Made by a program: the position numbers and the translations under genes. The notes under the pieces were generated by a model. That model saw only the letters and a program-made list of their open reading frames with translations, was not told the origin of the DNA and did not search any database. Below, piece by piece: positions 1,087-29,241 of a stretch of DNA of 32,734 nucleotides (within the stretch, counting starts at the first letter, position 1; each line of letters begins with the position of its first letter). Origin of the DNA: an uncultured Alphaproteobacteria bacterium (GTDB lineage Bacteria > Pseudomonadota > Alphaproteobacteria > Bin95); assembly GCA_937891825.1 (NCBI GenBank), contig CALAHN010000044.1, positions 1 to 32,734 on the forward strand. Direction: 5' to 3'.

Positions 1087-1169
1087 AATGAATACGGCTG
1101 CCCGTTCCGTGCAATGGCGGTATGTGTGAAACGCAACCCAGCCCAACGATTTTTACAGGGGAGTTCACT

Positions 1170-2396
1170 TTGGCGAGATTGTCCGACATGCCCGAGACGC
1201 TGCAGAAGCACATGCGCGCGCTGCCGTTGCCTGCCTATGACGCGACGCCTTTCGTTCAGGGGCGGCCGCTCGCGGAGCGTCGGGTCGCGCTTGTATCGAC
1301 GGCCGGACTCGCCATGCGGGGCGAAGCGCCCTTCGGCATGGGCGCGGCCGACTACCGTGTGATTCCAGGCGACGCCGGGCCGGGCGATATCGTGATGAGC
1401 CACATCTCGGTCAACTACGACCGGACGGGCTATCAACGCGATTGGAACGTCGTGCTGCCGCTCGATCGGCTCCGCGAGATGGCGCGGGACGGCGCGATCG
1501 GCTCGGTCGCGGCGCATCACTACAGTTTCATGGGCGCGACCGACCCGGCGGCGATGGCGCCGGCGGCGGCCGAGATCGCGCGGCATATGATGGCGGACGG
1601 CGTCGACGCCGTCCTACTGCTGCCAGTCTGACCGAACTGTACGCGCGCCGTGTGCGCGCTTGCCCATAGTTTCGAGCAAGCCGGAATTCCGACAGTCGCG
1701 ATCGCGCTCGTCCGGGAGCATGCCGCGGCGATGCAGCCGCCGCGCGCGCTTTGGGTGCCGTTCGAACTTGGCCGCCCGGTCGGGGCGCCGGAGGATGCCG
1801 GGTTCCAGCGCCGGGTCGTGACGGCCGCCCTGGGCTTGCTCGATGCGGCTTTCGGCCCGGTTCTGACCGACTATCCGGAAGACGCGCCGCCCGACGGCGG
1901 CGACGGCGCCATGGACGAAGGTTGGACCTGCCCAGTCAGTTTCGCGGCGCCCGAGGCCAATGCGCCGGATACGTTCGCCGCCAAAGTTTCGGCGGAAGCG
2001 GCGCAGTTGAAGCCCTGGCATGAGGCCTGGAAGCGCCGCAAGGGCGCATCCGGCATCGGCGCGGCCGGCGCGGAGGTCGAGGCGCTCGCGGCATTCATCG
2101 GCGCCCTGGCGGACGGCGGCGACCCGCCGTCGCCGGTCCCTGGGGCCGATATGGCGCAATCCCTGAAGCTCGCGGTCAATGACCTGATGACCTACTATCA
2201 GGAGGGGGCGAACGCCCAGCCGGGCGCGACCGGCGGCTCCAAGGCGATCAACGACTGGTTCTGGGGGCAGACGGTTTTGGGCAAGGCGCTGCTGCGCATT
2301 CGCGTACAAGCCAGCCAAAGCGACGACCCGAAGCTGGCCGCGGTCGCCGGCCGTCTGGTTCTGCCGCATGTCGCCGCGGCTTATGCTGGCGAATGA
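1170..2396 (+). CDS. Selenoprotein, GrdB/PrdB-type glycine/sarcosine/betaine/D-proline reductase family (in-frame TGA read as Sec)
   Basis: Read through TGA 1629-1631, this is one 408-residue protein. Before the TGA the frame shows VALVSTAGLAMRG, the VIPGD / VMSHIS / YDRTG segments, PLDRLREMARDGAIG and HHYSFMG, which I recognise from the GrdB/PrdB reductase family. After it the same frame continues at once with PNCTRAVCALAHSFEQAGIP. The result is a U154-x-x-C157 redox motif (further Cys at 162) where the family carries its selenocysteine. The start is TTG 1170 because ACAGGGGAG (1156-1163) lies six bases upstream; ATG 1122 has no such site. Without recoding the locus would be miscalled as a 153-residue protein plus a separate gene from GTG 1650. 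Clostridial relatives reductively cleave amino acids or betaine; the alphaproteobacterial members have no role I can name. First gene of an operon with an SDR, a Zn-ADH and a MaoC hydratase. Confidence 0.85.
1629..1659 (+). promoter_or_regulatory. Sec codon TGA and candidate bacterial SECIS hairpin
   Basis: TGA at 1629-1631 is followed by a hairpin: GCGCGC (1643-1648), loop CGTGT (1649-1653), GCGCGC (1654-1659), with weaker pairing possible below (GTA/TTG-type pairs around a C/T mismatch). The apical loop begins 17 bases after the TGA and has G as its second base. That fits the general bacterial SECIS description, in which the loop lies about 16-37 bases from the UGA and has a G among its first two bases. 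The hairpin lies inside the coding sequence, as bacterial SECIS elements must for SelB to reach the stalled ribosome. The GC repeats could also pair in other registers. Confidence 0.65.
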
Positions 2397-2424: not shown

Positions 2425-3204
2425 ATGACAGGACGGATCGCGGTGATCACGGGCGGGGGCAGCGGCATCGGCCGGGCGACCGCCCTGGCGCTCGGCGGGC
2501 AGGGCGACCATGTGATCGCGGCCGACATGAATGCGGCGGGCGCGGCCGAGACCGTCCGCCTTGTCACGGCCGCTGGCGGCGCCGCGTCGGCGCTCACGGT
2601 CGATGTCGCGGATGAGGCCTCGGTCACGGCCATGGCGGCGGCGGCCGAGGCGATCGGGCCGGTCGCCGTGCTGGTGAACTGCGCCGGCATTCTCCAGAAC
2701 GCCTCCCGGGTCGAGGACATGGACCTGGCCGAGCATGACCGGGTGTGGGCGGTCAATTATCGCGGCACCTACTTGTGTTGCCGGGCGCTTGGTCCCGTCA
2801 TGGCGGGGCGGGGCGCCGGGGCCATCGTCAATATCGGCTCGATCGCCGGCTTCGAGATGTTTCCGCTGCCGGCCTACGGCCCATCGAAGGCCGCAATCCA
2901 TCAATTGACGAAAGTGCTTGCGGGCGACCTCGGCGCGCGGGGCGTGCGCGTCAATGCGGTCGCGCCCGGCTTCGTCCTGACCGAGGCCTTGCGGGCCAGG
3001 GTCGCGGCGGGGGAGCGGGATACGTCCGTCATGGAAAGCCAGAACGCGATCCCGCAGATCGTGACGCCGGAGGATATCGCCAACGCGATCCAGTTCCTCT
3101 GCAGCGATGGCGCGCGGGCGGTGACCGGCGTTACCCTGCCGGTCGACAACGGCTGGCTTGCAGGCCTTGCCTACAACACCTATGCCGGCAACAAGAAAAA
3201 CTGA
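2425..3204 (+). CDS. Short-chain dehydrogenase/reductase (SDR)
   Basis: A 259-residue classical SDR. The cofactor loop TGGGSGIG is at residues 9-16 and Asp34 closes the second beta strand, which favours NAD(H). NCAG is at 85-88, and the catalytic residues are Ser139 (NIGS), Tyr151 and Lys155 (YGPSK). The C-terminus shows the usual VTGVTLPVDNGW ending. The ATG at 2425 starts the MTGRIAVITGGG motif directly; an upstream in-frame ATG would overlap the selenoprotein gene and adds no family sequence. It lies 28 bases after the selenoprotein gene and 17 before the alcohol dehydrogenase, so co-transcription is likely. The substrate is unknown; the context suggests oxidoreduction of a hydroxy or keto intermediate. 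Confidence 0.93.
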   Translation: MTGRIAVITGGGSGIGRATALALGGQGDHVIAADMNAAGAAETVRLVTAAGGAASALTVDVADEASVTAMAAAAEAIGPVAVLVNCAGILQNASRVEDMDLAEHDRVWAVNYRGTYLCCRALGPVMAGRGAGAIVNIGSIAGFEMFPLPAYGPSKAAIHQLTKVLAGDLGARGVRVNAVAPGFVLTEALRARVAAGERDTSVMESQNAIPQIVTPEDIANAIQFLCSDGARAVTGVTLPVDNGWLAGLAYNTYAGNKKN

Positions 3205-3221: not shown

Positions 3222-4319
3222 ATGCCAAAGACGATCAAAGCCGCGATCCTGCGCGAGACCGGCAAGCCGCTAACTGTCGAAGCCATCGAGATCGACGAAC
3301 CCGGCCCCCGCGAAGTCCGCATCCGCACTCGAGCATGCGGCGTCTGCCATTCCGATCTGCACATGGCGGACGGCAAATATCCCTGGAAATACCCGACCGT
3401 GCTTGGCCATGAAGCCGCCGGCATCGTCGATGCGGTCGGCGAGCAGGTGACCTATGTAAAGCCGGGGGACACGGTCATCACCTGCCTCTCCGCCTTTTGC
3501 GGCGAGTGCGAATATTGCCTGTCCGGCAAGATGTCGCTTTGCGAGAACCCCATGTTGATGCGGGCGCCCGGCCAGCCGACGCGCTTGCGCCAGGGCGGGG
3601 CCGAAATCCATCAGTTCGCCCATCTCTCGGCCTTCGCCGAAATGATGCTGGTGCATGAGCATGCGCTCGTGAAGGTCCGGCCCGATGTCCCGATGGATCG
3701 GGCCGCGTTGATCGGCTGCGGCGTCACGACAGGCGTCGGCGCGGTGCAGAATACGGCGCGGATCGAGGCGGGCTCGACGGTCGCGGTCATTGGCTGCGGC
3801 GGCGTCGGCCTTTCCGCGATCAACGGCGCGGCGATCGCGGGCGCGAGCCGCGTCATCGCCATCGATCTTTCCGCGACGAAGCTCAATCTGGCGAAACAAT
3901 TCGGCGCGACCGACGTCGTCAACCCGGCCGATGGCGATAGCGTCAAGCAGGTCCGCAATCTGGTCGGCGGCGGCGGCGTTCACTATGCCTTCGAAGCCAT
4001 CGGCCTGAAGCAAACGGCGGAGGACGCTTTCCGCATGATCCGTCCCGGCGGCACGGCGACGATCATCGGCATGATCCCGGTCGGCACCAAGATCGAGTTG
4101 CATGGGCCGGAGTTCTTGCGCGAGAAGAAGATTCAAGGCTCGACTATGGGCTCGAATCGCTTCCGCACCGACATGCCGCGCTACATCGATTTCTACATGC
4201 AGGGCCGGCTCAAGCTCGACGAGCTCGTTTCTGCGCATATCGGCCTCGGCGATATCAATGAAGCCTTCGAGGAAATGAAGAAGGGCGAGATCGCCCGTTC
4301 GGTCATCATGTTCGATTAA
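3222..4319 (+). CDS. Zinc-dependent alcohol dehydrogenase (class III-like MDR)
   Basis: A 365-residue medium-chain alcohol dehydrogenase. Catalytic zinc ligands are visible as Cys42 (ACGVCHSD), the GHE at 62-64 and the Cys of LIGCGVTTG. The structural zinc site is the full set Cys93, Cys96, Cys99 and Cys107. The NAD-binding loop is GCGGVGLSA. The layout resembles class III (glutathione-dependent formaldehyde dehydrogenase-like) and mycobacterial-type ADHs used on aldehydes or bulky alcohols. ATG 3222 lies 17 bases after the SDR stop and starts MPKTIKAAIL, the conserved first strand. Third gene of the selenoprotein operon. The enzyme class is secure; the substrate cannot be read from sequence. 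Confidence 0.95.
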   Translation: MPKTIKAAILRETGKPLTVEAIEIDEPGPREVRIRTRACGVCHSDLHMADGKYPWKYPTVLGHEAAGIVDAVGEQVTYVKPGDTVITCLSAFCGECEYCLSGKMSLCENPMLMRAPGQPTRLRQGGAEIHQFAHLSAFAEMMLVHEHALVKVRPDVPMDRAALIGCGVTTGVGAVQNTARIEAGSTVAVIGCGGVGLSAINGAAIAGASRVIAIDLSATKLNLAKQFGATDVVNPADGDSVKQVRNLVGGGGVHYAFEAIGLKQTAEDAFRMIRPGGTATIIGMIPVGTKIELHGPEFLREKKIQGSTMGSNRFRTDMPRYIDFYMQGRLKLDELVSAHIGLGDINEAFEEMKKGEIARSVIMFD

Positions 4320-4353: not shown

Positions 4354-4806
4354 ATGCGCAAAATTGCGAACCCTGCCGCCTTCAAGGACCTTGTCGGCCA
4401 GGAGCTTGGCGTCAGCGATTGGGCCGACATCACCCAGGAACGCATCAACACATTCGCCGAAGCGACGGGCGATTTTCAGTGGATCCATATTGATGCCGCG
4501 CGGGCGGCCGCGGCGCTGCCGACAAAATCGACGATCGCCCACGGGTTTCTGACCCTGTCCATGGCGGCCGGACTGCCAGTGTTCGAGGTCGAGAGCCTGT
4601 CGAACGCGATCAACTACGGCTGCAATAAAGTGCGCTTCACCAATATGGTTCCGGTCGGCTCGCGGGTGCGCCTGCGTCAGACATTGAAAGAGGCCGAGGA
4701 CGTAAAGGGCGGCGGCATTCGGACGATCGTCGAAAGCACAGTGGAAATCGAAGGCGCGGAGCGTCCGGCAATGGTCGCCGAACAGATTGTAATCTACTAC
4801 GCTTAA
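4354..4806 (+). CDS. MaoC-like (R)-specific enoyl-CoA hydratase/dehydratase
   Basis: A 150-residue single hot-dog domain of the MaoC family. The hydratase-2 signature is present: FAEATGDFQWIH (Asp40, His45 as the catalytic pair) followed by TIAHGFLTLS (His63-Gly64). Members hydrate trans-2-enoyl-CoA to (R)-3-hydroxyacyl-CoA, or the reverse. The length matches stand-alone members. It starts at ATG 4354, 34 bases after the ADH stop, and is the last gene of the selenoprotein operon, with 179 bases before the next gene. Its presence suggests that the operon handles a CoA-bound intermediate. Confidence 0.92.
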   Translation: MRKIANPAAFKDLVGQELGVSDWADITQERINTFAEATGDFQWIHIDAARAAAALPTKSTIAHGFLTLSMAAGLPVFEVESLSNAINYGCNKVRFTNMVPVGSRVRLRQTLKEAEDVKGGGIRTIVESTVEIEGAERPAMVAEQIVIYYA

Positions 4807-7834: not shown

Positions 7835-10099
7835 ATGATGCGATTTCTCATCGCCGCAGTCTGTCTTGCTGGCTGGGGCTTCGGGGCGGCGGCAGAGCCG
7901 GCCACATGGGCGGTCGACCATGGCAAGAGCCGCCTCGGCTTCGTCACCTACTGGCAGAATGCGCCCGTCAAGGGTGCCTTCAAGGAATGGCGCGCCGACA
8001 TCCGCTTCGATCCGGACGATCTGGCCGCCAGCCGCGCGCTGGTGACGATCGCGACCGGCAGCGCCGACACCGCCTACGCCGACCGGGATCAGGAGATCAA
8101 GAAGAAGGACTGGTTCGCCATCGACGTCTTCCCCGAGGCGACCTTCCAGGCGGAGGCCTTCCGGCACACTGGCGGCGATGCTTATGTGGCCGACGGCAAG
8201 CTCTCGATCAAAGGGGTGGAAGCGCCGCTCATGCTGCCGTTCACGCTGACGATCGCGGGCGACCGGGCGGTCATGACCGCCTCGGTCCCGGTATCGCGGC
8301 TGACCTTCGGCGTCGGCGACGGCCAGTGGCGGAACACGGATTTCATCAAGGCTGACGTCACGGTCGAGATCAAGCTCGAGGCAGAGCGCGCGCCGAAGGC
8401 GGCGAGCGCTCCGGCGCCTGAAGCCGCGCCGCCGGAGCCTGAGAACGCCAGCGCCCGCGCGAAGACCCGGCCCGCCGCGACCGGCCAGTTGCATATGGCG
8501 GCGACCGCCAACAATCACGCGACGGAAGCGGCCTATCTCATGCTGCGCGCTGGCGGTTCGGCGGCGGACGCGGCGATTGCAGCGCAACTGGTCCTGAACG
8601 TCGTCGAGCCGCAGTCCTCGGGCATCGGCGGCGGCGCGTTGTTGTTGTACTGGGATCAGTCGAGCCGGAAGCTGACCGCGCTCGACGGCCGGGAGACCGC
8701 GCCCGCCGCAGCCGGCCCAGACTATTTCCTGAAGCCGGACGGCAAGCCCATGAAATTCTGGGACGCGGTCATCGGCGGACGCGCGGTCGGCGCGCCGGGA
8801 ACGCTGGCATTACTGGCTGAAATGCATCGCCGGCACGGCAAGCTGGAATGGCGCGCGCTCTTCCAGCCGGCGATCCGGCTGGCGGACATTGGCTTCGCGA
8901 TCTCGCCACGGCTCGCGGAAGCGATTGCCGACGCGCAGGCCGACGGCCTGGACCGCTTCCCCGCGGCGCGCGCCTATTTCTTCGAAGCATCGGGCGCGCC
9001 GAAGCCGCAGGGCACGCGCCTCCGCAACCCCGCCTTCGCCGCGACGCTGCGCCAGATCGCCGATGGCGGCGCCGATGTTTTCTACAAGGGCGCGATCGCC
9101 GATGCGATCGTCGCCGCCGTCCAGACGCCGACGAACCCCGGGCTGCTGGCGAAGTCCGATCTTGCCGGTTACGCGGTGGTCGAGCGCTCGCCGGTTTGCG
9201 GGCCGTATCGGGAATATGTCGTCTGCGGGTTTCCGCCGCCGACGTCAGGCGGCATCGGCGTTCTGCAGACCTTGCAGATGTTGGCGCGCTTCGACCTGGC
9301 CCGCCTGGGGCGCGGGCCGGAAAGCGCGCACCTTTTCGCCGAGGCCCTGAAGCGCGCCTACGCCGACCGGGACCGCTATCTCGCCGATCCCGATTTTATT
9401 TCCGTGCCGACCGCGGGATTGCTGAATGCCAACTATCTTGCTGGACGCGCGAAAACAATCGATCCAGGGAAGGCGGCGTCGGATGTGGAGGCGGGCGAGC
9501 CGCCCGGCGCCAGTTTACGTCTCGCTCCGCCCGTATTGCCCCACGAGAAGGGGACAAGCCACGTCGTCGTCCGCGACCGTTGGGGCAGCGCCCTTTCCTT
9601 GACCACGACCATCGAAACCGGTTTCGGCAGTCGGGTGATGGCTGGCGGGTTCCTGTTGAACAACGAGCTGACCGACTTCTCGCGCGCGCCAACGGTCGAC
9701 GGCGTCGAGGTCGCGAACCGGGTCGAGGGGGGCAAGCGCCCGCGCTCGACGATGGCCCCGACAATCCTGTTTCAGAACGAGCAGCCGGCGCTGTTGATCG
9801 GCTCGCCGGGCGGCTCCAGGATCATCGGCTATGTGGCGGGCGCGATCGTCAATATCGTGGATTTCGGCATGCCGCTCGCTGATGCGCTGGCGGCCGGGCA
9901 TGTCTCCAACCGGAAAGGGCCGACCGACCTTGAGACAGGCACGGACGCGGCGGATTTGGCAGGCCCGCTGGCGGCGCTTGGCCACACGGTGCGGGCGCAG
10001 GACCTGACGAGCGGCCTCGCCGCCATCCGGATTTCGGCGGACGGCGGGCTGCTCGGCGCCGCCGACCCGCGCCGCGAGGGCTTTGCGCTCGGCGAGTGA
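7835..10099 (+). CDS. Exported YceI domain fused to gamma-glutamyltransferase
   Basis: A 754-residue fusion. Residues 1-20 are a signal peptide ending AAA-E. Residues 22-184 are a YceI lipocalin-like domain (starts ATWAVDHGKSRLGF, includes LSIKGVEAPLMLPFTL), a family that binds polyprenoid or other amphiphilic ligands. Residues 185-216 are an Ala/Pro-rich linker. From residue 217 comes a complete gamma-glutamyltransferase: LRAGGSAADAAIAAQ, EPQSSGIGGGALLLYW, the autocatalytic Thr574 (GTSHVVV) and GSPGGSRI at 656-663. Cleavage before Thr574 would leave a small subunit of 181 residues, close to the normal length. GGT hydrolyses or transfers gamma-glutamyl groups of glutathione, here in the periplasm. 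The frame is unbroken. AGGGGGCG precedes ATG 7835. Cleavage would leave YceI attached to the large subunit. Confidence 0.9.
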   Translation: MMRFLIAAVCLAGWGFGAAAEPATWAVDHGKSRLGFVTYWQNAPVKGAFKEWRADIRFDPDDLAASRALVTIATGSADTAYADRDQEIKKKDWFAIDVFPEATFQAEAFRHTGGDAYVADGKLSIKGVEAPLMLPFTLTIAGDRAVMTASVPVSRLTFGVGDGQWRNTDFIKADVTVEIKLEAERAPKAASAPAPEAAPPEPENASARAKTRPAATGQLHMAATANNHATEAAYLMLRAGGSAADAAIAAQLVLNVVEPQSSGIGGGALLLYWDQSSRKLTALDGRETAPAAAGPDYFLKPDGKPMKFWDAVIGGRAVGAPGTLALLAEMHRRHGKLEWRALFQPAIRLADIGFAISPRLAEAIADAQADGLDRFPAARAYFFEASGAPKPQGTRLRNPAFAATLRQIADGGADVFYKGAIADAIVAAVQTPTNPGLLAKSDLAGYAVVERSPVCGPYREYVVCGFPPPTSGGIGVLQTLQMLARFDLARLGRGPESAHLFAEALKRAYADRDRYLADPDFISVPTAGLLNANYLAGRAKTIDPGKAASDVEAGEPPGASLRLAPPVLPHEKGTSHVVVRDRWGSALSLTTTIETGFGSRVMAGGFLLNNELTDFSRAPTVDGVEVANRVEGGKRPRSTMAPTILFQNEQPALLIGSPGGSRIIGYVAGAIVNIVDFGMPLADALAAGHVSNRKGPTDLETGTDAADLAGPLAALGHTVRAQDLTSGLAAIRISADGGLLGAADPRREGFALGE

Positions 10100-22524: not shown

Positions 22525-24021
22525 TCAGTAGTCGTAAACCGATTTCATCAGCCACAGCGAGATATTCGGCTGCCACATGACAAGCAGAAGGCCGAAAAGC
22601 TGGATCATGACGAAGGGGATGATCCCCTTGTAAATCGATTGGATTTTCACTTCTTTCGGCGCGATGCCCTTCATGTAGAAGAGCGCGAAACCGAATGGCG
22701 GGGTGAGGAACGAGGTTTGCAGATTGATCGCCATCAGGATCAGGAACCAGATCGTCACGTCCTTCGGGTCGACGTGGCCGCCGAAATCAAGGCCAGCGAC
22801 CAGCGGCGCGAAGACGGGCAGGACGATCAGGGTGATCTCGATCCAGTCGAGGAAGAAGCCCAGGACGAACGTGATGCCCATGAGCAGGAAGAGCAACTCC
22901 CAGGACCCCAGGCCTGCGGACTGGATCATGTGCTCGACGATATCGTCGCCGCCGAGGGAGCGGTAGACATAGGCAAAGCAGGTTGCGCTGATGATGATGA
23001 AGAAGATCATCGAAATGGTGCGCGCCGCCGTGTGGCAGACGCCCTGCAGCAGATCGAAGGTCAGGCGGCCGTTGAAGATTGCGAGCAGCAAGGTGCCGAA
23101 GGCCCCGACAGCGCCTGCCTCGCTCGGCGTCGCGACGCCAAACAGGATCGAGCCCTTGATCATGCCGATCAGCAGGACCGGCGGCAGGAAGCTTTTGAAA
23201 ATCATCTTCGGATATTCGCGAGCCGGCACGGCAAGCAAGGCCGGGTCCAGCGGCGGCGCGGCCGAGGGGCGGAGCGCGGAATATGTGGCGACAAACACCA
23301 GATAGAGGGCGGCGAGCATCAGGCCCGGCAGAATCGCGGCCATGAACATGTTGCCGACCGAAACGGCCATCAGGTCGGCCATGATGATCAGCATGATGCT
23401 GGGCGGAATAAGAATGCCGAGCGTTCCGGAAGCAGCGATGCAGCCCGTCGCCAGCGCATGGCTGTAGCCTTGCCGGATCATCGTTGGAAGCGCGAGCGCA
23501 GTCATCATCGTGACCGAGGCGCCGATGATGCCGGTCATGGCGGCGAGCACGGTGCCCATCACGACGACGGCGAGGGCGAGGGAGCCCGGAACTTTCTTCA
23601 ACAGCACCTGGACGCAGTAGAGCAGGTCGTTCGCAACGCCGCTCCGCTCCATCATGATGCCCATGAAGACAAAGGCCGGGACCGATACCAGCACCAGGTT
23701 CTCGGCGCCGCCGAACCAGATCCGCGGCATGAAATTGAAAAACTCGACCAGGGAGAAAATCCCGAAGAAGTAGCCGATCAATCCGTAGAGAAATGCCAGC
23801 CCGCCAAGAATGAACGCCACGGGAAACCCGGAAAACAGCAGCATGGCGAGCGAGGCGAACATCACGATCGGCAGATAATCGTGCAACAGATATAGCAGGT
23901 CTTCCTGCTCATCCGGCGAGAGCCCGAGAACATAGACATACGCCATGCCGACGATGGCGAGCGCGACAAGAACGATAGCTAACCCGGTATTACGGCGAAT
24001 GCCGGCGGTGAGCGCTTCCAT
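22525..24021 (-). CDS. dctM: TRAP transporter large permease (DctM family)
   Basis: A 498-residue protein with at least twelve hydrophobic segments. DctM signatures visible include AMLLFSGFPVAFILGG, VPAFVFMGIMMERSG, AASGTLGILIPPSIMLII and FGVATPSEAGAVGAFG. It forms the transport channel using an ion gradient. Some 60 residues longer than typical DctM, as in the 2-oxoacid/chloroaromatic subgroup. ATG 24021 is preceded by AAGGGAAGG. It lies 139 bases after dctP; a stable hairpin occupies that gap. Confidence 0.95.
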   Translation of the reverse strand: MEALTAGIRRNTGLAIVLVALAIVGMAYVYVLGLSPDEQEDLLYLLHDYLPIVMFASLAMLLFSGFPVAFILGGLAFLYGLIGYFFGIFSLVEFFNFMPRIWFGGAENLVLVSVPAFVFMGIMMERSGVANDLLYCVQVLLKKVPGSLALAVVVMGTVLAAMTGIIGASVTMMTALALPTMIRQGYSHALATGCIAASGTLGILIPPSIMLIIMADLMAVSVGNMFMAAILPGLMLAALYLVFVATYSALRPSAAPPLDPALLAVPAREYPKMIFKSFLPPVLLIGMIKGSILFGVATPSEAGAVGAFGTLLLAIFNGRLTFDLLQGVCHTAARTISMIFFIIISATCFAYVYRSLGGDDIVEHMIQSAGLGSWELLFLLMGITFVLGFFLDWIEITLIVLPVFAPLVAGLDFGGHVDPKDVTIWFLILMAINLQTSFLTPPFGFALFYMKGIAPKEVKIQSIYKGIIPFVMIQLFGLLLVMWQPNISLWLMKSVYDY

Positions 24022-24083
24022 CGATACAATACCTTCCCTTGTTGGCGGCGCTATTTTTTAAGTTTTTTGCGCCTTGGATCGCA

Positions 24084-24122
24084 GAGGAGGCGCCCGGACC
24101 GAACCGGCCAGGGCGCCTCCTC
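24084..24122 (-). promoter_or_regulatory. Intercistronic hairpin between dctP and dctM
   Basis: A 12-base-pair GC-rich stem (24084-24095 with 24111-24122) with a 15-base loop, downstream of the dctP stop. On the minus strand it is followed by mixed then A-rich sequence, not a T run, so it is unlikely to be a full terminator. Such hairpins commonly protect the message of the abundant binding protein and reduce read-through to the permease genes. Confidence 0.7.
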
Positions 24123-24160
24123 GCAGCGGATGCGGCTGATGTGCTCAGCCGCTGGCCGTC

Positions 24161-25222
24161 CTACTGGAGGTAGGTCGACTTGATCGCCTGAGCGGCGCCC
24201 CACTTCGCATATTTCACACGGAAGTCGGCGTAGCTATCGGCGACGCGCTTGAACAGCGGGTCGGTCTTCGCATCTTCTTCAAGGACCTCGTTCCAGGTCT
24301 TTTCAAAGACGCCGAGCGTCTCGTCGTCCCAACGTTTGGTGATCACGCCGTACTTTTCGCCCATTTCAACCATGGCGCCCGGATTGACCGCTTCGGTTTC
24401 GGCATAGGTGTTGTGAATGCTGTCGCCGCAAGCGACTTCCAGCATGGCCTGTTGAGATTCCGACAGGCCCTTCCACTTGTCCATGTTGACGAGCATCTGG
24501 CTGACCGAGGTCTGCTGATGCCAGCCAGGGAAGTAGTTGTACTTCGCGATCTGATAGAAGCCGTACTTGATGTCCATGGCGGGCATCGAGAATTCGGTCG
24601 CGTCGATGACGCCCTTCTCGAGAGCCGGGAAGATGTCGCCGCCGGCCAGGAGCTGGGTGGAGACGCCAAGCTTCTGCATGACGCGCGCGCCAAGACCGAA
24701 GAACCGCATCTTCAGGCCCTTGAGCTGATCGAGGCTGGTGATCTCATTCTTGAACCAGCCCGAAGTTTCCGGCCCGATGGCGAAGCAGTCCATCTGATGG
24801 ATGTTGTTGGAGGCGTAGATTTCCTGCTGGATTTCGTTGCCGCCGCCGTAGATCTTCCAGGCAAAATATTCGCCGTAGCCAGGGCCGAAGGGGACCGAGG
24901 TGAAGAACGCCAGGGCGGGAACCTTGCCGACGTCATAGCCGGCCGTCGTCCAGGCCGCTTCGATCGAGCCTTTCGATGTGGCGTCGAAGCCTTCATTGCC
25001 CGGCACAAGCGCGCCCGGCTCGAAGAATTTTAACTGCATGTCGCCGCCGGAAGCGAGCTTTACCCGCTCCGCATAGCGGACGCCCGAAGTGCCGAGATGC
25101 GGCACGGAACTGCCCCAAGCGCTGTGCAGCTTCCAGCGCACGCGCTCTGCTTGCGCCGTGGTCGCCGCCATGGCGACTGCGGCGACGGCCGATACGAGGC
25201 CGATCTTTGTCGATAGTTTCAT
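24161..25222 (-). CDS. dctP: TRAP transporter solute-binding protein (DctP family, TakP-like)
   Basis: A 353-residue periplasmic binding protein. Residues 1-25 are a signal peptide (LVSAVAAVAMAATTAQA). RWKLHSAWGSSVP, MRFFGLGARVMQKLGV and ALEKGVIDATEFSMPAMD are typical of the subgroup that includes the 2-oxoacid-binding TakP and the chloroaromatic-binding FcbT1. The conserved Arg of MRFFG would hold the ligand carboxylate. The likely ligand is a monocarboxylate or 2-oxoacid. ATG 25222 has AGGGAGGG six bases upstream. First gene of the operon dctP-dctM-dctQ, with a promoter at 25259-25287. Confidence 0.94.
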   Translation of the reverse strand: MKLSTKIGLVSAVAAVAMAATTAQAERVRWKLHSAWGSSVPHLGTSGVRYAERVKLASGGDMQLKFFEPGALVPGNEGFDATSKGSIEAAWTTAGYDVGKVPALAFFTSVPFGPGYGEYFAWKIYGGGNEIQQEIYASNNIHQMDCFAIGPETSGWFKNEITSLDQLKGLKMRFFGLGARVMQKLGVSTQLLAGGDIFPALEKGVIDATEFSMPAMDIKYGFYQIAKYNYFPGWHQQTSVSQMLVNMDKWKGLSESQQAMLEVACGDSIHNTYAETEAVNPGAMVEMGEKYGVITKRWDDETLGVFEKTWNEVLEEDAKTDPLFKRVADSYADFRVKYAKWGAAQAIKSTYLQ

Positions 25223-28102: not shown

Positions 28103-28624
28103 ATGGTCGAAGCTGTGAACAGCGACTGGAAAGACCAACTCTACGACAGCATCAAGGCGCTGAAGATCAGGCAGGTCGTCTATGTTCCCGACGCGGGCCA
28201 TGCGAAGCTGATCGACCGGTGTCTCGCGGACCCCGAGATCGACTGTTTCCCGCTGGTGAACGAGTTTGAAGCCGTCGGCATCTGCGTCGGCGCCTGGCTT
28301 GGCGGCAGGCGCGCGTGCGCCTTGATGCAGTCCAGCGGCATCGGCAACGCCATCAACGCGCTCGGGCTTGTGCATTCGACCGGCGCGCCCTTCTTCGCAA
28401 TCGCGACCATGCGCGGCGAGTGGGGCGAATTCAACGGCTGGCAGACCCCGATGGGCCAGGGCATCCCGAAGGCGCTTGAGGCGGTCAACGTCGTGGTCAA
28501 CCGCGCCGAGACCGCCGCCGATGTCATTCCAGTGACGGAGGCGAGCGGCCGCCTGGCGTTCAACTCCTATTTGCCGGTCTTTTCGCTGATTTCCCAGCGC
28601 GCCACCGGCGCCAAAGTCTTTTAA
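28103..28624 (+). CDS. ThDP-dependent decarboxylase, alpha (PYR) subunit, ComD-like
   Basis: A 173-residue ThDP-binding pyrimidine-domain protein like the alpha subunit of sulfopyruvate decarboxylase and phosphonopyruvate decarboxylase. The cofactor-activating Glu is Glu56 in VNEFEAVGICVGAWLGG. ALMQSSGIGNAINAL is the expected following loop. It works as a dimer of dimers with the beta subunit, encoded 11 bases downstream. GGGAGAGG precedes ATG 28103. The pair decarboxylates a 2-oxoacid; sulfopyruvate is possible, but no sulfonate genes are nearby. Confidence 0.88.
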   Translation: MVEAVNSDWKDQLYDSIKALKIRQVVYVPDAGHAKLIDRCLADPEIDCFPLVNEFEAVGICVGAWLGGRRACALMQSSGIGNAINALGLVHSTGAPFFAIATMRGEWGEFNGWQTPMGQGIPKALEAVNVVVNRAETAADVIPVTEASGRLAFNSYLPVFSLISQRATGAKVF

Positions 28625-28635
28625 GGGAGGCCGCC

Positions 28636-29241
28636 ATGACGACAGGATCGCAAAATCGCCTGGAACGCCGCGGCGCCGTCCATCGGCTGCTGCGCGACCG
28701 GGACCCCAATCTGCTGATAGTGGCCGGCCTCGGCTCCGCCATCTGGGATGCGGAGACGGCGGGGGAGACGCCGCTGAACTTCTATCTGCTGGGCGCGATG
28801 GGCAGCGCCACCCCGACCGCCCTTGGCCTCGCGACGGCGCAGCCCGACAAGCGCGTCATCGCATTGGTCGGAGACGCGGAACTGGCGATGGGCCTCTATG
28901 TGCTCGCGACGATCGGCTGGCGGAAGCCGGCCAATCTCTCGGTGATCTGCCTCGACAATGGCCGCTTCGGCGAAACCGGCGGGCAAGTCAGTCATACCGG
29001 CGTCAATCTGGACCTGGCCGGCGTCGCGGCCGCCAGCGGCATTCCGACGGTGCGGCGCGTGAACGACGACGCCGGCATCGATGAATTGCGCGATCTGGCG
29101 ATGGCGGGGCCAGGGCCGGTCTTCGGACTGGTTGAAATCACCGCCGCCATGCCGCCCGTTCAAATGCCGATCCGCAATGGCGTGATCGGCATGGCGCGGT
29201 TCCGCGAGGCGCTTTTGGGGCCTCAGGCGTTGAAGGAATAA
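28636..29241 (+). CDS. ThDP-dependent decarboxylase, beta (PP) subunit, ComE-like
   Basis: A 201-residue ThDP diphosphate-binding subunit. The metal/diphosphate motif begins GDAELAMG at 79-86 and ends with Asn108 (CLDNGRFG), the normal spacing; Ala replaces the usual Gly after GD. FYLLGAMGSATPTALGLA is the standard preceding segment. GGGAGG precedes ATG 28636. Together with the alpha subunit it forms the active sites of a split sulfopyruvate/phosphonopyruvate-type decarboxylase. Its stop is followed at once by a hairpin. Confidence 0.9.
   Translation: MTTGSQNRLERRGAVHRLLRDRDPNLLIVAGLGSAIWDAETAGETPLNFYLLGAMGSATPTALGLATAQPDKRVIALVGDAELAMGLYVLATIGWRKPANLSVICLDNGRFGETGGQVSHTGVNLDLAGVAAASGIPTVRRVNDDAGIDELRDLAMAGPGPVFGLVEITAAMPPVQMPIRNGVIGMARFREALLGPQALKE

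Follow-up and report, generated by a model that had tools for sequence, protein, structure and literature searches.

The window analyzed here, a stretch of 32,734 nucleotides from an uncultured alphaproteobacterium, carries on its forward strand a gene of 408 codons (positions 1170–2396) that opens with TTG and is interrupted by a single TGA. With that TGA read as selenocysteine (Sec), the encoded protein (1170–2393) comprises 408 residues, or about 42.6 kDa; codon 154 (1629–1631, forward strand) is the sole internal TGA ahead of the terminal one, and it falls within the motif L-P-V-U-P-N-C-T-R-A, at a site where aligned homologues carry Sec or Cys. The first-pass annotation of this DNA had described a frame open across a single TGA at U-P-N-C, and the same frame was recovered here. 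It had also anticipated that the gene would be miscalled as two, as indeed happens under translation table 11, where ORF calling yields separate frames at 1122–1631 and 1650–2396; the gene is thereby an example of a selenoprotein that standard ORF calling splits in two. A purine-rich GGGGAG (1158–1163, forward strand), 6 nt upstream of the TTG, reads as the likely ribosome-binding site. Among relatives, tblastn matches begin at the start residue of the window protein, and the codon found there is ATG at 92 of 109 loci, TTG at 8, GTG at 4 and another codon at the other 5.

Three genes follow on the same strand. A short-chain dehydrogenase (2425–3204) lies 28 nt downstream and is probably co-transcribed with the selenoprotein gene, although comparison of neighborhoods shows that it is not a conserved partner; beyond it come a zinc-dependent alcohol dehydrogenase-like protein (3222–4319) and a MaoC-like dehydratase (4354–4806), both named from profile matches. 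Divergently, a zinc-binding dehydrogenase of the quinone-oxidoreductase type occupies positions 1–981 of the reverse strand; its family recurs upstream on the opposite strand at 12 of 109 loci, where the selenoprotein gene is in nearly every case closely related to that of the window. Two further observations concern more distant parts of the window. One open frame at 7835–10099 (forward strand) joins a YceI-like domain (residues 25–183) to a full gamma-glutamyltranspeptidase (236–749), a pairing that looks unusual. At 28103–29241 (forward strand) are two adjoining half-size thiamine-diphosphate enzyme subunits, which may resemble those of sulfopyruvate decarboxylase; TRAP transporter genes (22525–25222, reverse strand) lie within a few kb of them.

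The selenoprotein divides into two parts. Residues 32–223 (1263–1838, forward strand) correspond to a PrdB/GrdB-like alpha/beta domain, delimited by TIGR04483, PF07355 and an AlphaFold2 model, and residues 233–408 (1866–2393, forward strand) form a C-terminal extension present in all 60 aligned rows. The model, built from those 60 rows (mean pLDDT 91.5, pTM 0.91), predicts the alpha/beta domain to about residue 235, a low-confidence stretch at 245–252, and an all-helical domain of about 140 residues at 269–407; modeled by itself, the C-terminal part once more comes out helical (pLDDT 88). Sec154 and Cys157 make up a UxxC pair at a helix start in the predicted alpha/beta domain, the motif running into helix 157–170. 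Among the residues invariant in both alignments are R63, H78, S80, D84, R85, P97, P152, the Sec position, P155, C157, T158, E169, P191, R192, G201, P203, Q213 and E276; conservation marks out H78, D84 and R85 as candidates for lining a pocket.

Neither sequence nor structure comparisons placed the extension in a known family. Pfam gave no match for the C-terminal part of the window protein, and three weak single-member matches among the 60 C-terminal rows (best E 0.012) were judged to be chance. Against PDB sequences, neither the protein nor the 60-row profile returned a match at E up to 1, and Foldseek gave none at E ≤ 0.001 for either the whole model or the C-terminal domain, its list being headed by photocobilin-like B12 proteins at TM 0.24–0.29 and rmsd 14. 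VIA-align reached at most Z 8.3 for residues 37–243, matched to LacI-type domains over 138 aligned positions at rmsd 3.3, and at most Z 4.3 for the C-terminal domain; such values are common without kinship, and leave room for a relative.

Conservation of the TGA was followed in two sets of relatives. A search with the window protein across 385 genomes of the class found relatives in 50 genomes, with up to four candidates scored in each, so that paralogue numbers are lower bounds. Thirty-six matches cover most of the query, and 33 of these contain an internal TGA; they span the codon, bearing out the earlier claim of homology on both sides of it. As read in 33 class genomes, these 36 copies of what we term the long form have TGA at codon 154 in 33 cases and a Cys codon (TGT or TGC) in three (L076, L077 and L080); L069 ends at a contig edge, L084 has a frame break and L073 an additional TAG. 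A broader contig scan counted 438 relatives, the best 80 of which all have TGA at the site (L121 with an additional in-frame stop) within a U-P-x-C-T motif, in the form UPNCT in 44 of the 80. The records of these best 80 are labeled as Alpha-, Beta- and Gammaproteobacteria, Geobacteraceae, Desulfobacterota-type groups and Chloroflexota. In the long-form homologues examined, residue 154 is Sec or Cys and nothing else.

The host is equipped to decode such a codon. In the window genome (163 contigs, 99.97% complete), all four sel genes were found: selA (512 bits), selB (424 bits), a tRNA-Sec above the Rfam threshold with anticodon TCA, which ARAGORN also calls as tRNA-SeC (tca), and selD. The last sits within a 765-residue open frame (L166, G000:C104:19770–20648), bigger than SelD alone; since a related 754-residue frame in L063 starts, by eye, like a dinucleotide-binding protein, a fusion of SelD to an NAD(P)H dehydrogenase is possible there. 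Across the class, selA was found in 56 of the 385 genomes at a threshold of E 1e-60, and its distribution tracks the codon. Among the 50 class genomes with relatives, 35 of the 38 with any TGA form have selA, as against none of the 12 with non-TGA forms only (Fisher p 4e-9); for the long form only, the figures are 29 of 30 TGA genomes versus none of three Cys genomes at the same threshold (Fisher p 7e-4), both p values being overstated because genomes are not independent. Three genomes (G264, with L043/L072; G011; and G314) have a TGA form yet no selA match and no SelB above cut-off, for which misplaced (misbinned) contigs, gaps or decaying genes are possible explanations.

A SECIS-like mRNA stem-loop of 17 nt (1643–1659, forward strand; loop G-U at 1650–1651) starts 11 nt past the TGA. 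When the 45 nt after the TGA were compared in 106 TGA copies, columns 12–17 were found to pair with 23–28 in 92–100% of copies for five counted pairs, the middle pair, 14–26, formed in just 52%, having been left out of the count. Of 103 distinct rows, for example, 78 show C-G and 22 show T-A at column pair 13–27. Over 36 nt in 99 distinct rows, pairing reaches 97.8% of 495 cells, compared with 22–63% in slid registers, and 26 cells are changed on both sides versus a shuffled mean of 4.8. The loop G19-U20 (G19-T20 in DNA) is kept by 105 of the 106 TGA copies, and all three Cys copies lack it. Synonymous choice is constrained too: at codons +4, +5, +6 and +8 one synonym accounts for 0.89–0.97 of copies versus 0.38–0.55 across whole genes, and at codon +7 for 0.66 versus a background of 0.38. 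Because Rfam at gathering scores gave no match within the window and folding energy is just slightly low (mean z about −0.64 over the 106 copies, below −1 in 28%), the case for the element rests on covariation, and the weak folding energy means that it cannot be read confidently from one sequence. Judged by comparison across copies, a SECIS stem-loop directly follows the UGA. We consider it nearly certain, from these sequence comparisons, that the window gene encodes a selenoprotein with Sec decoded at UGA 154.

Profile matches confirm the earlier assignment of the protein to the GrdB/PrdB superfamily and show how far it stands from the named members. PF07355 (GRDB) matches residues 79–150 at 44.7 bits, above its gathering cut-off of 22. 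The best curated model, TIGR04483 (PrdB), matches residues 32–223 at 101.1 bits against an equivalog cut-off of 300; in a Peptoclostridium control record, PrdB scores 305.5 and two GrdB-type proteins 95.1 and 101.5. TIGR01918 reaches 65.2 bits against a cut-off of 65.45, and TIGR01917 59.1 against 602.2. At E ≤ 0.001, every one of the 60 aligned sequences is recognized by the same set of five models, TIGR04483 and TIGR01918 among them. In a tree of 54 rows, a 100/100 branch separates 26 long rows and L200, a member on a very long branch that was initially labeled short and has a long-type motif, from PrdB, GrdB-type proteins and proteobacterial short forms. Motifs follow this division: [UC]-P-x-C-T in the long form, [UC]-P-[VLI]-[CD]-H-Q in the short forms, UGTCH in four of four PrdB rows and UGTCT in two of two GrdB-type rows (L175 and L176, whose GrdB label was assigned from motif and adjoining PF09338 matches). 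The long-form UPxCT branch, as defined here, has both a clade of its own and the C-terminal extension.

Besides the window gene, its genome holds three other TGA members of the superfamily, all of them short forms (L181, L182 and L183, on G000:C48, C152 and C59), which makes four in all. One of them, L181 (G000:C48:11800–13600), is a U-P-L-D paralogue with Asp in place of the resolving Cys. The swap recurs in the sister genome (L184, with Sec) and in a Cys version, C-P-L-D, in L189, and the three sequences form one clade (100/99); Sec without a resolving Cys in L181 and L184 suggests yet another chemistry.

Partner subunits were sought by family. PF09338, the pyruvoyl family of PrdA and GrdE, had no match in any of the 385 class genomes, the window genome included, nor in the tool's 14 control genomes, and gave three matches in a control record that served as positive control. 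PF04723 (GrdA) had no match in the window genome (G000) and its sister (G080) and one in the control record. By way of reference, PrdA adjoins PrdB in three firmicute records. These results agree with the earlier claim that GrdA/GrdE and PrdA are absent, and the long form very probably constitutes a separate, partner-less branch of the superfamily, as far as profiles and tree can tell.

Surrounding genes were compared at 109 loci, 57 of which have 5 kb on both sides, and counts of neighbor families are therefore lower bounds. A universal neighbor was not found, no family occurring at more than 14 of the 109 loci. A mixed dehydrogenase group and selD each occur at 14, selB at 7 and selA at 5, with selA, selB or selD lying within 5 kb at 17 loci. 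The five selA labels agree with the selA genome search, the selD label derives from the AIRS match of one member (L064), and the selB label comes from reading a representative sequence. Nor is the order seen in the window—short-chain dehydrogenase, zinc alcohol dehydrogenase, MaoC-like protein—a conserved set among the 109 loci. A profile scan covered 16 neighbors at 16 loci, and lineage-specific neighbors were set aside: GST, CoA-transferase III, 2-hydroxyacid dehydrogenase, TauD, xanthine-dehydrogenase type, VOC, SMP-30, luciferase-like and hydantoinase proteins, all but the xanthine-dehydrogenase type and the luciferase-like one being noted beside the gene at single loci. A 116-residue protein encoded just upstream in L115, L118 and L151 is AhpD-like by eye, but the one copy tested had no Pfam match. 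At 4 of 109 loci (L112, L135, L152 and L154), two long-form genes form a tandem with a gap of a few to about 12 nt, and such a pair possibly forms a heteromer. Because neighbor genes vary, a pathway cannot be read from context; the mixed surroundings fit a small-molecule enzyme with a general electron donor, and prove nothing.

What might a GrdB/PrdB relative do on its own? Two precedents guide our proposal. The mechanism proposed for PrdB begins with its selenolate attacking a carbon of proline bound by the pyruvoyl group of PrdA, after which PrdB's own cysteine splits the selenoether, according to the available text of PMC3091704. Cleavage of the C–F bond of fluoroacetate, a substrate with which a Schiff base cannot form, has been put forward as the reaction of a GrdB-like protein (PMC10838667, text as available). 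By analogy with both, Sec154 of the window protein would be the nucleophile and Cys157 the resolving thiol. The selenolate would attack an activated small molecule, either at a carbon bearing nitrogen, sulfur or a halogen or at an oxidized chalcogen; the substrate would be reduced, Cys157 would resolve the selenium adduct, leaving a selenenylsulfide, and thioredoxin, glutathione or another general dithiol donor would regenerate the enzyme. The C-terminal helical domain may stand in for the pyruvoyl subunit by covering the substrate pocket or by forming it. Cleavage of a C–N bond is doubtful, since it is hard to see how an amine would be activated in the absence of pyruvoyl, and a function other than amino-acid reduction can reasonably be inferred. 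In essence, the protein would most likely be a selenol/thiol reductase that acts alone on an activated small molecule. Reductive cleavage by such a stand-alone route is plausible by analogy, if a little short of probable; as a whole, a genuine selenoprotein of a distinct GrdB/PrdB branch, working without the usual partner, is our best explanation and one that we hold with moderate confidence. Against it count, among other things, the three TGA genomes that have no selA match and a TIGR01918 score that falls short of the cut-off by just 0.25 bits.

The UxxC pair is no less suited to simple thiol redox or peroxidase chemistry, and such a role is the main rival. Here the protein would be a thiol-dependent peroxidase or a general thiol/selenol oxidoreductase, in which a peroxide or disulfide oxidizes Sec and Cys157 resolves the product. 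Many thiol-redox selenoproteins carry a UxxC motif (PMC1088965, in part), and the reference list of PMC3091704 includes a title reporting peroxidase activity of GrdB, but reductases of the superfamily apply the same motif to small-molecule C–N cleavage (PMC3091704, in part), and the big conserved extension together with invariant H78, D84, R85 and P97 suggests a specific pocket. We therefore regard this alternative as unlikely, albeit one to be taken seriously. Less probable still is a helper in selenium metabolism that carries, delivers or senses selenium. The sel genes close to 17 of the 109 loci would be in keeping with such a role, yet a long form with TGA occurs in just 29 of the 56 selA genomes, an Enterococcus prd locus also has selD near an ordinary proline reductase, and the Cys versions occur in genomes without a selA match, which have no Sec system to serve. 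It is highly improbable that the protein reduces D-proline or glycine like the true reductases, helped by a pyruvoyl partner that went unrecognized: the shared matches of all 60 members to TIGR04483 and TIGR01918 are outweighed by a PrdB score of about a third of the cut-off that control PrdB passes, by the empty PF09338 search, and by the UPxCT motif and separate clade. Finally, a TGA that is a sequencing error—the danger that the first-pass annotation had itself raised—a pseudogene stop or a true terminator is very unlikely indeed, because, notwithstanding the three TGA genomes that lack a selA match, the same TGA recurs in dozens of independent genomes, the stem-loop after it is conserved with covariation, and the Sec machinery is present in the genome.

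The marine 'proline reductase' label, as far as is known, rests on resemblance to the clostridial enzyme. Here a coherent branch occurs without the partner that the proline reductase reaction requires, and with a domain foreign to the clostridial enzyme. Tentatively, and with less confidence than we attach to the individual gene, it may represent a widespread family of stand-alone selenoenzymes in Proteobacteria and Chloroflexota, whose hosts would be without known amino-acid reductases. In such enzymes a selenolate would reductively cleave a carbon–heteroatom bond without a pyruvoyl subunit, and a fused helical domain of unseen fold would bind the substrate; 'proline reductase' would then be the wrong name for a large part of the marine PrdB-like selenoproteins. 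The natural Cys versions L076, L077 and L080 can be expressed without Sec machinery, and their existence makes the substrate question for these selenoproteins directly testable.

Selenoproteins of this general kind are already known, PrdB-like UxxC forms having been in print since 2005. 'Proline reductase' UxxC selenoproteins numbered 42 sequences in the Sargasso Sea in 2005 (PMC1088965) and 235 in the GOS data in 2008 (PMC2398784). 'Proline reductase' selenoproteins were described from Deltaproteobacteria in 2006 (PMC1794560), and a further survey assigns 6.4% of the selenoprotein genes in marine data to 'proline reductase' (PMC9402790), all according to the portions of these papers available. 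The first-pass annotation had presented such reductases as known mainly from Firmicutes, and the surprise this implies is not supported in view of the marine and deltaproteobacterial reports; its reading of a superfamily selenoprotein, in an alphaproteobacterial host and with partners that are not found, stands. In its available text, an inventory of 119 families lists just GrdB (PF07355), D-proline reductase (TIGR04483) and associated PrdC forms in the superfamily (PMC13188914). Neither there nor in the literature searched, mostly without subscription papers, did we find the long-form branch named, with its own clade, UPxCT motif, helical extension and lack of a pyruvoyl partner.

Comparison with known systems places the window protein among several relatives. 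The Sargasso Sea and GOS 'Proline reductase PrdB' proteins are likewise PrdB-like UxxC selenoproteins of marine bacteria, but are treated without division into branches in the available text of both studies (PMC1088965, PMC2398784). PrdB itself (TIGR04483) shares Sec in a UxxC motif, at Sec152 of 242 residues in C. sticklandii (PMC3091704, in part) and at Sec154 in the window protein. PrdB has 241–242 residues and UGTCH, however, compared with 408 residues and UPNCT here, and the window protein scores below the PrdB cut-off, belongs to its own 100/100 clade and comes from a genome without a PrdA-family match. For GrdB, GrdF and GrdH (PF07355, TIGR01917/TIGR01918), the last third of the models matches window residues 79–225, whereas their first ~270 positions are unmatched and the models stop where the extension begins; in addition, matches to the GrdE and GrdA families were not found in the window genome. 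The proteobacterial short form belongs to the same superfamily, has a UPxC-style motif and occurs in the same genomes; two Cys examples carry the name 'Glycine/sarcosine/betaine reductase selenoprotein B family protein' in RefSeq plasmid records. It differs in lying across the 100/100 branch, in having HQ after the motif where the long form has TR, and in open frames mostly of about 280–350 residues, which leave no room for the extension. FarB of Synergistota is a GrdB relative proposed to reduce fluoroacetate and thus to act on a non-amine substrate; it differs in that its operon includes a GrdE-type partner, farE, and its host ferments amino acids (PMC10838667, in part).
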